Below, piece after piece: positions 8,600-21,531 of a stretch of 56,020 nucleotides of DNA. The stretch comes from Bacteroidales bacterium. Lineage in GTDB: Bacteria; Bacteroidota; Bacteroidia; Bacteroidales; UBA932. A program made the position numbers and the translations under genes. Under the pieces are notes generated by a model. It did no database searches and had not been told where the DNA came from. It was given only the letters and a program-made list of their open reading frames with translations. Within the stretch, counting starts at the first letter, position 1; each line of letters opens with the position of its first letter. The DNA is taken from positions 1 through 56,020 of the forward strand of contig JAFZZW010000062.1 of NCBI GenBank assembly GCA_017615615.1. Reading direction: 5' to 3'.

Positions 8600-9040
8600 C
8601 TACAGCGCCAGCACCAGCATCAGGGCGCCGACGAGGCCGAGGATGGCGTAGAATTCCGGGAGGGCGGCGTAGATGAGGGTGTTGGTCTGGACGTCGTGGC
8701 CCTGGCTGATGCCGATGATGCCGTTGGCGCAGACCTGGCCCTGACGGATGGCGGAGAACAGGCAGACGAGGCCGACACCTAGCCCGACGCCGAAGAGCAG
8801 GGGACCGTTGGCGGCGAAGTCGAACTTGTAAACGAGCAGCCACATGAAGAATCCTACGAAGCCGTAGATACCCTGAGTGGCGGGGAGGGCGGAAAGGATA
8901 AGATAGCTGCTGGATTTCTCCGGCGCCTTCTTGAGAGCGCCTTCAGCGGCGTTGCCGGCTATTGTCGTGCCGAAGGCACTGCCGATGCCTGCGAGGCTGA
9001 GCATCAGCCCGAGTCCGAGATAACCAAGAATTTCGTTCAT
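8600..9040 (-). CDS. ntpK: V-type ATPase rotor subunit K
   Basis: This 146-residue proteolipid has two duplicated helical hairpins and forms the membrane rotor ring. All five residues that bind Na+ in Enterococcus hirae NtpK align here: Leu52, Thr55 and Gln56 in LPATQG, Gln100 in IRQGQ and Glu129 in LPEFYAILG. That predicts a Na+-coupled ring rather than an H+ ring. It is the last gene of the ATPase operon, 18 bp after subunit I. The upstream sodium-pump decarboxylase genes support Na+ as the coupling ion. Confidence 0.93.
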
Positions 9041-9058
9041 ATCAAAGATTTTTAAGTA

Positions 9059-10771
9059 TTAGACGAGAGGATCATATTTACGGCCCTTGCCATCATACCC
9101 GGAATTCTTGAAGAACTCCAGGAAGTTGAGCCTGAGCGGATGCACGAAGGCACCGAGGCAGCACATTGCAAAATTGAGGGCATGACCTATTACGAGAATA
9201 ACTACAAAAGCAAGCCAGCCGGGGCCGATGGAGCCGTCGCCCAGGGTCATGGCGGCGATATCGTTAAACGCCTTGCCGAGCATGCCGCCGGCGAGACCGA
9301 GGGCGTACAGACGCAGGTAGCTGAGGACGTCTCCAAGCAGGCCGGTAACCGTATTGTAGGTCTCCCAGAGGCCGGAGCCGACATTCTTCAAAGGACTCCG
9401 GTGGATATCGTTGAAGAGGAAAATACCGAGAGCGGAAAGAACGCCAAGACCGATGACTATCCATTTGAGAATCGGACCCGGGACAAGGCTGAACAGAGCC
9501 AATACGCCAAGAACGACTCCGCCGACTATGAGCACCGTCCAACCCCAGACGCCCAGCGAACCCAGAAATCCCTTGTTGCGCGTGGCATAGACGGTCTTGA
9601 CAATCATCGCAAGGCACAGGTGCACAATACCGATTATAATGGACAGAACCATCTGCGCCTCAAACCCGGCAATCGTCCCGGTAATCATCACCGCTTTGAT
9701 GGGCGAAGGAAGCCACGTCAGAGTGGAGATATCATACCCGAAGAAGGTATGCATCACGATGCCGATAATGAAAGTGCCTACACCGAGAATGGTAACAAGG
9801 GGTGCAAGGGACTTGAAGTTCTGCACCTTGCGAAGGAGCATGCCCAGAATAATCAGCAGAATGCCATATCCCGCATCGCCCATGCACATCGCAAAGAAGA
9901 GCAGGAAGAAAATGGAAATGTAAGGCGTAGGGTCGAACTCGTTGTAATCCGGCCTGCCATACATATCGGTAAGCACCTCGAACTGCTTTACAAATTTATT
10001 GTTCTTTAGCTTAATAGGAGGATTGTCTTCGATGCTTGCTTTAGATGAGAACCAAACGCAGTCCAGCTCGTCGAAAGCCTTGGCAAGGCGCTCATCCTCG
10101 CCCGAAGGGGCAAAACCCTCGAACACCGTGAGGCCGCCGTCAGCCGCAGATTCTCCGCCTACGGAAGCAAGGTACAGCCCCATTTCGCGGCGAAGTCCGG
10201 TCAACCTGTCTTGCAATTCCGGAAGGGTATCTTTCAACCCTTCAAGTTCGTTTTTATACGCCTCGATCTCTGCCTCTTTGGAAGCTATGCTCTCCTGCAC
10301 TTCGCCAATGCTTCTTGCCGGCGCAGGCAGAGGTTCGGCAGGGATGTCGGCCTCGCCAAATGCGACGAACCACACCTTGCCTTTATCCCTCTCGACTTCC
10401 TGAATGGCAAAGGCATCGGCCCAGGAGTCATCATACTTTTTCTCCGGGACGCAGTAGAATCGTACGGGGATGCCGAGGGAATCCAGTTTGCCGCGGTCGT
10501 ATTCGCCCCATCCGGCACAACTGTCGGCCTCTTTATGCAATGAGCTCAAATCGGCCTCCAACTCGCTCAGATGTGCATCCTTGCCCTTCTCTATGCGCGA
10601 GATCTCACCGCTGACAGACTCGATTTCCGAAAGCATAGCCGCGGACCTTTCGTCAACAGGCCTGGAGGAACGCGTGACGTCCATCACGCCCAGCTTGCCC
10701 AGGGACTCCAGGAAGGAATCCCGGTTCCCGCTGAGCAGGATGAAGTCGTAACGGGTCATCTTCTCGATCAT
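9059..10771 (-). CDS. ntpI: V-type ATPase subunit I (membrane stator)
   Basis: This 570-residue protein has an N-terminal cytosolic half with coiled-coil character and a C-terminal half of about seven or eight membrane helices starting near residue 275. This is the layout of the a/I stator subunit, which forms the ion half-channels against the K ring. It is somewhat shorter than the roughly 650 residues usual in other bacteria. Its start overlaps the stop of subunit D (ATGA), and subunit K follows 18 bp later. Conserved charged membrane residues were not mapped. Confidence 0.88.
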   Translation of the reverse strand: MIEKMTRYDFILLSGNRDSFLESLGKLGVMDVTRSSRPVDERSAAMLSEIESVSGEISRIEKGKDAHLSELEADLSSLHKEADSCAGWGEYDRGKLDSLGIPVRFYCVPEKKYDDSWADAFAIQEVERDKGKVWFVAFGEADIPAEPLPAPARSIGEVQESIASKEAEIEAYKNELEGLKDTLPELQDRLTGLRREMGLYLASVGGESAADGGLTVFEGFAPSGEDERLAKAFDELDCVWFSSKASIEDNPPIKLKNNKFVKQFEVLTDMYGRPDYNEFDPTPYISIFFLLFFAMCMGDAGYGILLIILGMLLRKVQNFKSLAPLVTILGVGTFIIGIVMHTFFGYDISTLTWLPSPIKAVMITGTIAGFEAQMVLSIIIGIVHLCLAMIVKTVYATRNKGFLGSLGVWGWTVLIVGGVVLGVLALFSLVPGPILKWIVIGLGVLSALGIFLFNDIHRSPLKNVGSGLWETYNTVTGLLGDVLSYLRLYALGLAGGMLGKAFNDIAAMTLGDGSIGPGWLAFVVILVIGHALNFAMCCLGAFVHPLRLNFLEFFKNSGYDGKGRKYDPLV

Positions 10772-20373: not shown

Positions 20374-21164
20374 TTGTTCTTGTCTGATAAGTGTTTGAGT
20401 ATCTGTTCGACGAGCCTGGGGCCTTTCCGGACCAGCCCCATGCGGACTTCGATCAGGGAGGCTCCGCTTTCCAGGGCTTCAGCGGCCTGCTCCGGCGTTT
20501 TGATATGGCAGTTCGCTATGATCGGCAAGCGGCCTCCGGAGCGGGAATGAATATAACCGATTTGCCTGATGCTGCGCGCCTCTATGCCGTCAACGCTGTT
20601 CAGCATGCAGTAATCAGTTATTTCATCCAGTTGTTCAGACGACAAGTCCTCCGGAATCTTGACGACGACGGGCTTGTACTCATCGTAAGAAAGACGGGCG
20701 TCGAGTATGTCGTCGAACAAATCCATATCCGGATTGTCCGATATGTCTATAACGAAGAAGTCGAAGAAGTCATATGCCAGACAGAAAGAGCGGAAGTAAT
20801 CGCCGGAAATGCACGGTGCCAGGATGTCGTTCTGGGGGTCTTTCTGGATGTTTGCTATGGCTTTCCTTACAGATGCCAGGTCTGCGAAAGGGCCCGTCTC
20901 AACGAAACTGAAGCCAAGGTCGTTCAGGTCGTTGTACAGCTCTCCGGCAAGGTCAAGGCCGGCTCCCAGGCCGACAGGATTGTAGAATTGCAGCCCGAAG
21001 ACCTCACGCTCGAGTCCGCCGGGGCGATTGCCATGAATCATGCGGCTGACAAACCTGCCGCCGGGTATCTTGCCCTGGAACTTGAAATATCGCAAGGCAA
21101 TCGAGCTGGCTTTGTCGTTGTCGGCAATCCGCTTGGTAAGAGGCCTGATCAATAAACTGTACAT
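20370..21164 (-). CDS. dihydroorotate-dehydrogenase-like protein, degenerate
   Basis: The 264-residue product starts best at MYSLLIRPLTKR; the longer open frame overlaps the HTH gene. It has the barrel layout of class 2 PyrD: an N-terminal helix, NPVGLGAGLD, GFSFVETG and a C-terminal GASLIEVRMGLVRKGP. But the catalytic NVSSPNT-type loop is replaced by IDISDNPD, and the FMN phosphate loop GVGG by ANCH. It is also shorter than usual (about 330 residues). It is therefore probably not a working dihydroorotate dehydrogenase; another FMN role or a structural role is possible. Confidence 0.7.
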   Translation of the reverse strand: MYSLLIRPLTKRIADNDKASSIALRYFKFQGKIPGGRFVSRMIHGNRPGGLEREVFGLQFYNPVGLGAGLDLAGELYNDLNDLGFSFVETGPFADLASVRKAIANIQKDPQNDILAPCISGDYFRSFCLAYDFFDFFVIDISDNPDMDLFDDILDARLSYDEYKPVVVKIPEDLSSEQLDEITDYCMLNSVDGIEARSIRQIGYIHSRSGGRLPIIANCHIKTPEQAAEALESGASLIEVRMGLVRKGPRLVEQILKHLSDKNK

Positions 21165-21198
21165 ATAGCAGACAAATATAATAAAAAATCCGCTGGAA

Positions 21199-21531
21199 TC
21201 AGCGGAATTCTCTGTATGTACCGTCTTCATAGAAGACGACGATGCGGTCGATTTGCGTTTTTACGCCTCCGGAGGGGGCGAAAAGATCCAAATCCTGTAC
21301 GGCATCAGGTTCGCCGGGCGGTGTCCTGTACATTTTTCCACGGCCGGTTACAAGCCATTCAAGACTCAGGGCAGGGTAGTTGCGCGCTATGCTCTCGAGG
21401 AAATCGAAGCCCGGCTTGTTGCGGCCGGACACAATATGCGATATGCTCGCCCTCGCAACGCCGAGGGTGTCGGCCAGCTGGGACTGAGTGATATTTTCAG
21501 CAGAAAGAAACTTCATCAAACGGTCGTTCAT
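21199..21531 (-). CDS. HTH (XRE-type) regulator
   Basis: This 110-residue protein has an N-terminal helix-turn-helix: ITQSQLADTLGVARASISHIVSGRNKPG, spread over about residues 14-41. A linker and a beta-rich end follow (DRIVVFYEDGTYREF). The ATG at 21531 was chosen because the upstream ATG at 21564 would lie within or before the promoter box at 21551-21558. It is the first gene of the long minus-strand array, 34 bp before the PyrD-like gene, so it may control that array. Confidence 0.85.
   Translation of the reverse strand: MNDRLMKFLSAENITQSQLADTLGVARASISHIVSGRNKPGFDFLESIARNYPALSLEWLVTGRGKMYRTPPGEPDAVQDLDLFAPSGGVKTQIDRIVVFYEDGTYREFR

Follow-up and report, generated by a model that had tools for sequence, protein, structure and literature searches.

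The window analysed here, a contig of 56,020 nt (JAFZZW010000062.1) from an uncultured Bacteroidales bacterium of the gut, carries on its minus strand the genes of a Na+-pumping biotin decarboxylase and, 18 bp further on, those of a V-type ATPase (V-ATPase). These genes probably belong to a unit of 14 that yields two Na+ machines, with the decarboxylase working on a supply other than methylmalonyl-CoA mutase. Judged from the genes present, the machines are known ones in an unusual fused form, and the decarboxylase appears to be orphaned from its usual succinate-fed supply enzymes.

Within a genome (G000) of 1.93 Mb in 92 contigs, 72% complete, the window makes up contig 30; we take the family to be UBA932 of GTDB. 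For its OadB, the named relatives that matched best were mostly metagenome-assembled genomes (MAGs) from gut and rumen, including Candidatus Cryptobacteroides choladohippi (L066) with 83% OadB identity, and the genus of the window is probably Candidatus Cryptobacteroides. In the genome sample the genus (group g1) comprised 19 genomes, 18 of them at 97-100% completeness, and the family (f1) 199.

Gene array and Na+ residues

Fifteen open reading frames (ORFs) on the minus strand occupy positions 8600-21531. Families were assigned by searches with Pfam and NCBIfam profiles. Together with the ORF list of the window these searches reproduced the gene order of a preliminary description of this DNA, and also its overlaps and tiny gaps (-11 to +86 bp, the 86 bp being the maximum reported before). 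In the direction of reading, the array and its sites are:

21199..21531, minus, helix-turn-helix (HTH) regulator gene (HTH_3, E 8.2e-10; scanned as 21199-21564)
21189..21206, minus, terminator-like hairpin of 7 bp with T-rich tail TTTTTTATTA, on the HTH stop codon (terminator scan)
21173..21180, minus, Bacteroidota -7 box TATATTTG before the PyrD-like gene (TAnnTTTG scan)
20370..21164, minus, PyrD-like protein, 264 aa (DHO_dh, E 1.6e-15; scanned as 20370-21230)
19876..20373, minus, CinA C-terminal domain protein (E 2.2e-43)
19256..19870, minus, 204-aa ORF with lipoprotein-like N-terminus (judged by eye)
17689..19251, minus, mmdA, carboxyltransferase subunit, 520 aa (Pfam and NCBIfam searches)
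17297..17692, minus, oadG-type small membrane subunit, 131 aa (OAD_gamma, E 2.9e-10, above the Pfam cut-off)
16857..17300, minus, biotin carrier with motif EAMKMEN (Biotin_lipoyl, E 1.1e-18)
15714..16856, minus, oadB, Na+-translocating carboxybiotin decarboxylase (OAD_beta, E 1.9e-146)
15696..15713, minus, 18-bp junction between decarboxylase and V-ATPase genes
15096..15695, minus, V-ATPase subunit E (PRK01558, E 6.1e-29, under its cut-off)
14534..15103, minus, DUF2764 protein of the Bacteroidota V-ATPase operon (DUF2764, E 9.4e-18)
12772..14526, minus, V-ATPase catalytic subunit A (domain search)
11463..12782, minus, V-ATPase subunit B (domain search)
11377..11462, minus, 86-bp gap between B and D with a palindromic repeat
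10768..11376, minus, V-ATPase subunit D (PRK02195, E 4.3e-60, above cut-off)
9059..10771, minus, V-ATPase subunit I (Pfam and NCBIfam searches)
8600..9040, minus, V-ATPase subunit K with five Na+ ligands (domain search and alignment with 2BL2)

OadB scored 466 bits against TIGR01109 (cut-off 190.6), and the carboxyltransferase, biotin carrier and gamma subunit all adjoin oadB, which is the gene set of a Na+-pumping biotin decarboxylase. OadG itself scored 33.1 bits against TIGR01195, under the cut-off of 36.05. The OadG of the related locus L032 (8650-9552, 300 aa) bears an N-terminal Lamin Tail Domain, for which the window protein is too short, and ORFs at the oadG place in other relatives range from about 120 to 330 aa. 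An alternative in-frame start of mmdA at 19314 would give a longer protein and overlap the preceding ORF.

Subunit K aligned to NtpK of E. hirae (2BL2) with E 9.3e-18. As the preliminary description had stated, all five Na+ ligands were kept: Leu52, Thr55, Gln56, Gln100 and Glu129 of the window protein correspond to residues 61, 64, 65, 110 and 139 of NtpK, numbered as in PMC2359735. Among 22 K proteins, the window included, Gln56, Gln100 and Glu129 were found in every one, Thr55 in 21 and Leu52 in 19. Gln100 and Glu129 align as well with subunit K of 8yy1 and of 6qum, so that Thr55 and Gln56 carry more weight. In the alignment of OadB with Salmonella OadB (6iva), equivalents of D203, N373, G377, S382, R389 and N412 were all present, those of D203, S382 and N412 being D150, S331 and N361; the six site residues did not vary across 109 distinct OadB sequences (117 rows with repeats counted). 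For the Salmonella enzyme it was reported that D203A and S382A abolish Na+ binding and that N412A weakens it (PMC7274780). The intact residues support, without proving, Na+ as the ion of both decarboxylase and V-ATPase, in keeping with the Na+ character first ascribed to the two systems.

The V-ATPase set E-DUF2764-A-B-D-I-K is of the Bacteroidota operon type, with seven genes and DUF2764 second. The V-type operon described for B. fragilis P207 (PMC10790697) is alike in these two features, in its duplicated K and in its conserved Na+ residues, and also in an F-type synthase and Nqr located elsewhere in the genome. The window differs in that its V-ATPase is joined to a Na+-pumping decarboxylase, a linkage not mentioned for B. 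fragilis in the excerpts of that paper. As these excerpts state for Bacteroides, the operon has fewer genes than other bacterial V-type systems, and it includes DUF2764. B. fragilis is reported to require its V-type genes in deoxycholate, and what the system does is given as not known (PMC10790697). DUF2764 as a disguised form of a known subunit was considered and rejected; profiles run against solved structures yielded a single match at chance level (E 0.93).

Predicted extent of the transcript and linkage in relatives

Promoters of this phylum lack the classical boxes, and TAnnTTTG is given as the -7 box, derived from B. fragilis and later verified for Flavobacterium (PMC7366714). The preliminary description had found only one clear promoter. 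On the minus strand of 8600-21700, however, three TAnnTTTG sites were found, at 21558 (TACTTTTG, 5' of the HTH gene), at 21180 (before the PyrD-like gene) and at 9998 (within subunit I). The box at 21180 is kept in all three relatives whose loci contain this stretch (L032, L036 and, as TATCTTTG, L035); its -33 element in the window is poor. The hairpin at 21206-21189 weighs by its location and not by the scan, which gave 19 matches vs 14.7 in shuffles. Since this hairpin lies on the HTH stop codon and is followed by the -7 box at 21180, the array most likely starts with the PyrD-like gene. The HTH gene, formerly placed first in the array, would then probably form a separate transcript. A scan for sigma-70 promoters was discarded as evidence: it gave 9 matches vs 8.4 expected, and the consensus of its 12/12 match (TTGACA-17-TATAAT, 21853-21825) is that of E. 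coli and the wrong one for this phylum.

Of 31 loci with more than 1 kb between oadB and the V-ATPase, 30 had a TAnnTTTG box in the 150 nt before subunit E, as had 19 of 32 compact loci; counts in the last 90 nt before subunit E were 29 and 19, respectively, vs 1.9 and 1.9 expected by shuffling. Among compact loci the box was present in 0/7 with a gap below 50 nt (the window included), 3/7 at 50-99 nt and 16/18 at 100 nt or more. The non-compact V-ATPases of the genus itself had it in 14/17 cases (one of them, G387, is also in the set of 31 and 32 loci). In the window the 150 nt before subunit E contain no TAnnTTTG, and neither do those before mmdA, where 52 of 91 loci have the box. Other starts within the two systems had it in 6/289 cases (OadG 3/92, carrier 1/96, OadB 2/101) and 0/252 cases (DUF2764 0/59, A 0/59, B 0/50, D 0/38, I 0/33, K 0/13). 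These sets contain near-identical strains (e.g. L100/L101 and L110/L111), and counts at the HTH, DHOD, CinA and LIP starts, from 1-5 loci each, were not used.

As the window has no separate V-ATPase box and relatives with a distant oadB have one in 30 of 31 loci, its V-ATPase probably relies on an upstream promoter. Decarboxylase and V-ATPase are thus probably truly fused in one transcript in the window genome, unlike in most relatives. The comparison of -7 boxes backs this part of the single array proposed before, but the HTH gene probably falls outside it, leaving 14 genes from the PyrD-like gene onwards. At locus L088 (9451-11143), oadG and oadB follow a -7-like box, TAACTTTG, with no adjoining mmdA or biotin carrier, which looks like a loss of the carboxyltransferase half.

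OadB was matched in 225 of the 295 genomes of an order-wide sample. Compared by eye among the matches listed, oadB and subunit A lay within 2 kb only in G000, G126 and G224, all of one family. Within the family, 116 of the 199 genomes had both genes among the matches listed, and of these 66 were compact (oadB and subunit A less than 2 kb apart), 14 had the genes 2-16 kb apart on the same strand, 32 on different contigs and 4 otherwise. Four genera were compact in nearly every paired genome (g2 13/13, g3 17/17, g202 11/11, g186 15/16). The compact arrangement is thus found in 66/116 paired family genomes, but in only 2/19 genomes of the genus. Such a distribution marks the linkage as an old family trait, yet a labile one. 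On the subunit A tree the rows lacking oadB, unlabelled rows aside, need two changes on the best tree and one to two over bootstrap trees.

In the nearest named relatives, L032-L036, about 7 kb separate oadB from subunit E; in L032, L033 and L036 three other genes fill this stretch. Elsewhere it holds metH-metF-like genes (L057) or Omp85-like ones (L038, L061). The window may have inherited its tight junction, or the junction may have formed anew when the 7-kb insert of L032-L036 was lost; the deciding branch has a support of 6.5/38.

At the head of the array, the PyrD-like protein scored under the cut-off of every listed NCBIfam pyrD model, and it is perhaps doubtful as a functional dihydroorotate dehydrogenase. 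Its middle is shorter than in quinone-dependent dihydroorotate dehydrogenases, and it is retained in the nearest relatives. The 204-aa ORF had no Pfam or NCBIfam matches, and among 80 loci a counterpart was found in L036 alone, with 29% match. Beyond the array, Rfam and tRNA scans of the window gave no matches. The stretch 3' of subunit K (8050-8560) contains inverted repeats, with perfect 25-nt arms at 8231-8255/8368-8392 and 35-nt arms at 8459-8493/8513-8547. Downstream of the array there is also a gene for a PD-(D/E)XK nuclease family transposase (PF12784, 6886-7827). At 569-4132 the window encodes a probable surface protein of 1187 aa that combines Big_2 (bacterial Ig-like) and Lcl_C domains.

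A decarboxylase without mutase and epimerase

Not one of the 19 genus genomes contained methylmalonyl-CoA mutase (PF01642), which occurred in 162 of the 180 family genomes outside the genus. It was also missing in 47 of the 50 genomes examined behind the 80 named oadB loci. The epimerase (TIGR03081) was likewise found in 0/19 genus genomes, and in all five sister-genus genomes it lies 31-58 bp from the start of mmdA. None of the 19 genus genomes thus contains mutase and epimerase together, as the succinate-propionate pathway demands, and the link to propionate metabolism that had been drawn for this array is not supported. In the order-wide sample 268/295 genomes have the mutase. Among 20 listed of the 27 that lack it, 11 have oadB, the window genome included; with at least 10 other genomes of this kind, the combination of oadB without mutase recurs.

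The sister-genus clusters (G126, G224, G297, G307, G331) resemble the window in that the decarboxylase adjoins the V-ATPase with oadB and subunit A less than 2 kb apart. They differ in having the epimerase upstream and the mutase elsewhere in the genome, whereas PyrD-like, CinA and 204-aa ORF genes stand upstream in the window. The natural reading would be an ancestral cluster epimerase-mmdA-oadG-carrier-oadB-V-ATPase, of which the genus lost the epimerase head, together with the mutase.

Against TIGR01117, the model for methylmalonyl-CoA decarboxylase, MmdA scored 787.2 bits, under the curated cut-off of 998.8; this is possibly a lineage effect. The window thus departs from a methylmalonyl-CoA decarboxylase in this score and in the missing supply enzymes of its genus. 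Selection was examined by ratios of nonsynonymous to synonymous substitution rates (dN/dS) in a mutase-less set of 71 named loci, the window and six genus loci. Median dN/dS was 0.122 for mmdA (480 pairs), 0.108 for oadB (626), 0.235 for the carrier (239), 0.289 for E (150), 0.132 for A (227) and 0.075 for B (213). Mutase-positive pairs within the dS limits were few: 6 for mmdA (median 0.086), 7 for oadB (0.109), 3 for the carrier (0.108) and one each for A, B and E (0.014-0.045). L110 was counted as mutase-positive in these and in the distance-ratio comparisons, the mutase itself being untested there. Stops occurred in 1/70 MmdA vs 2/37 subunit A sequences. By these measures mmdA and oadB look constrained, that is, under purifying selection with the enzyme retained, although the constraint on MmdA may be somewhat altered or relaxed.

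Two candidate signatures of a changed substrate were rejected. MmdA residue 410, which we take to be the specificity position after PccB, is Ile also in mutase-positive L116, L119, L120, L123-L125, L127 and L129 and is not a switch tied to mutase loss. Five MmdA columns dividing mutase-less from mutase-positive sequences track the genus split and were given no functional reading.

The array had also been described as a self-contained Na+ circuit. G000 carries in addition an F-type operon (gamma, beta and c found by profile search; alpha, delta, b, a and epsilon by eye) and encodes Rnf C, D and E and Nqr B and C. With these genes in the same genome the circuit appears to be one among several energy systems and not self-contained. 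The F-type c subunit has Gly after the presumed ion-binding Glu, where the Na+-type c subunit of I. tartaricus has Ser; by eye the F-type synthase looks like a H+ enzyme. In the titles and abstract openings surveyed, nothing pointed to a decarboxylase-V-ATPase linkage or to mutase-less Cryptobacteroides, which is no proof of absence.

Proposed function and its rivals

In the reading that we consider probable, a transcript would run from the -7 box at 21180 through the PyrD-like gene to subunit K, so that the two Na+ machines are made in step. MmdA would transfer the carboxyl group of an acyl-CoA to biotin on the carrier, and OadB would release CO2 and export Na+. The seven-gene V-ATPase would pass Na+ through its K ring, either inward making ATP or outward spending it. 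Two modes seem likely: making ATP as long as the decarboxylase is active, and exporting Na+ in times of stress. Sister genera presumably supply their decarboxylase with (S)-methylmalonyl-CoA by way of the succinate pathway. With mutase and epimerase gone in the genus, the retained decarboxylase would use another supply, the candidates being malonyl-CoA, methylmalonyl-CoA of non-mutase origin, or the reverse reaction. The methylmalonyl-CoA decarboxylase of Veillonella accepts malonyl-CoA and is reversible (we found no paper in support). We infer the single transcript, Na+ as the ion, the coupling, its direction and the substrate. A more specific version is offered only tentatively: once mutase and epimerase were lost, Cryptobacteroides may have re-used the decarboxylase, e.g. 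for malonyl-CoA or in reverse as an acyl-CoA carboxylase driven by Na+; in the species of the window it would then have been fused into one transcript with the V-ATPase, leaving a circuit untied from propionate.

Several observations weigh against the proposed reading. The genus has two compact genomes, one with the genes 6 kb apart and six with them on different contigs, and 10 of the 19 lack oadB while having subunit A; linkage so labile within a genus means that joint expression is not needed. The 86-bp B-D gap could carry an attenuator of the message in its palindromic repeat, whose 14-nt core is found again at 8154-8167; this gap is at most 20 bp in 31 of 38 loci having both genes, the window counted. 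Three of the 50 examined genomes with named oadB loci (L042, L104, L111) do have the mutase, it was tested in only 46 of the 71 named loci of the dN/dS set (25 not), and G000 itself is incomplete, the absence of the enzymes leaning on 18 nearly complete relatives. Ile at MmdA residue 410 is shared with several mutase-positive genera. The MmdA:A distance ratio was 0.98 in mutase-less vs 0.74 in mutase-positive pairs at matched depth (274 and 37 non-independent pairs), and the faster change of MmdA relative to A also fits relaxed constraint.

Among the rivals, the one we rate highest, though still as rather doubtful, is that decarboxylase and V-ATPase are chance neighbours on one transcript and functionally uncoupled. 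Of the nine oadB-positive genus genomes, six have the two on separate contigs (contig breaks are possible), and in L032-L036 about 7 kb lies between them, occupied by three other genes in L032, L033 and L036. Set against this are the compact order across the four genera named above and the Na+ residues borne by both machines. It is somewhat less likely that the decarboxylase is a relic which, after the loss of mutase and epimerase, is vanishing species by species, its adjacency to the V-ATPase inherited and now functionless. The missing oadB of 10/19 genus genomes, the faster change of MmdA relative to subunit A and the oadG and oadB of L088 without neighbouring mmdA or carrier would fit such decay. 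Against a relic stand a dN/dS of 0.11-0.12, comparable to subunit A, stops in 1/70 MmdA vs 2/37 A sequences, Na+ residues in 109/109 distinct OadB sequences, and oadB without mutase in no fewer than 10 further genomes from the order-wide sample.

Least likely is the ordinary succinate-to-propionate route, in which methylmalonyl-CoA derived from succinyl-CoA is decarboxylated and the resulting Na+ gradient drives the V-ATPase. This is the likely state of the sister genera, given the mutase in 162/180 family genomes outside the genus and the epimerase beside mmdA in 5/5. Mutase pieces also occur, on two contigs, in L042, which has 86% OadB identity to the window and is either an exception or a mixed bin. 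For the genus itself the route is contradicted by the absence of both enzymes from 19/19 genomes, and by that of the mutase from 47/50 genomes with oadB loci.

The most interesting point, missed in the preliminary description, is a decarboxylase without its pathway; the machines themselves were already known. Cryptobacteroides is reported as one of two predominant genera among cattle rumen MAGs (65 MAGs; PMC10937913), and two rumen studies, in the excerpts available, score propionate potential by marker sets naming mutase, epimerase and methylmalonyl-CoA decarboxylase. In a genus seemingly without mutase and epimerase, the decarboxylase alone as a marker of propionate formation would mislead. 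The fused array would also offer a natural test of whether the Na+ gradient of a decarboxylase powers a V-type ATPase.

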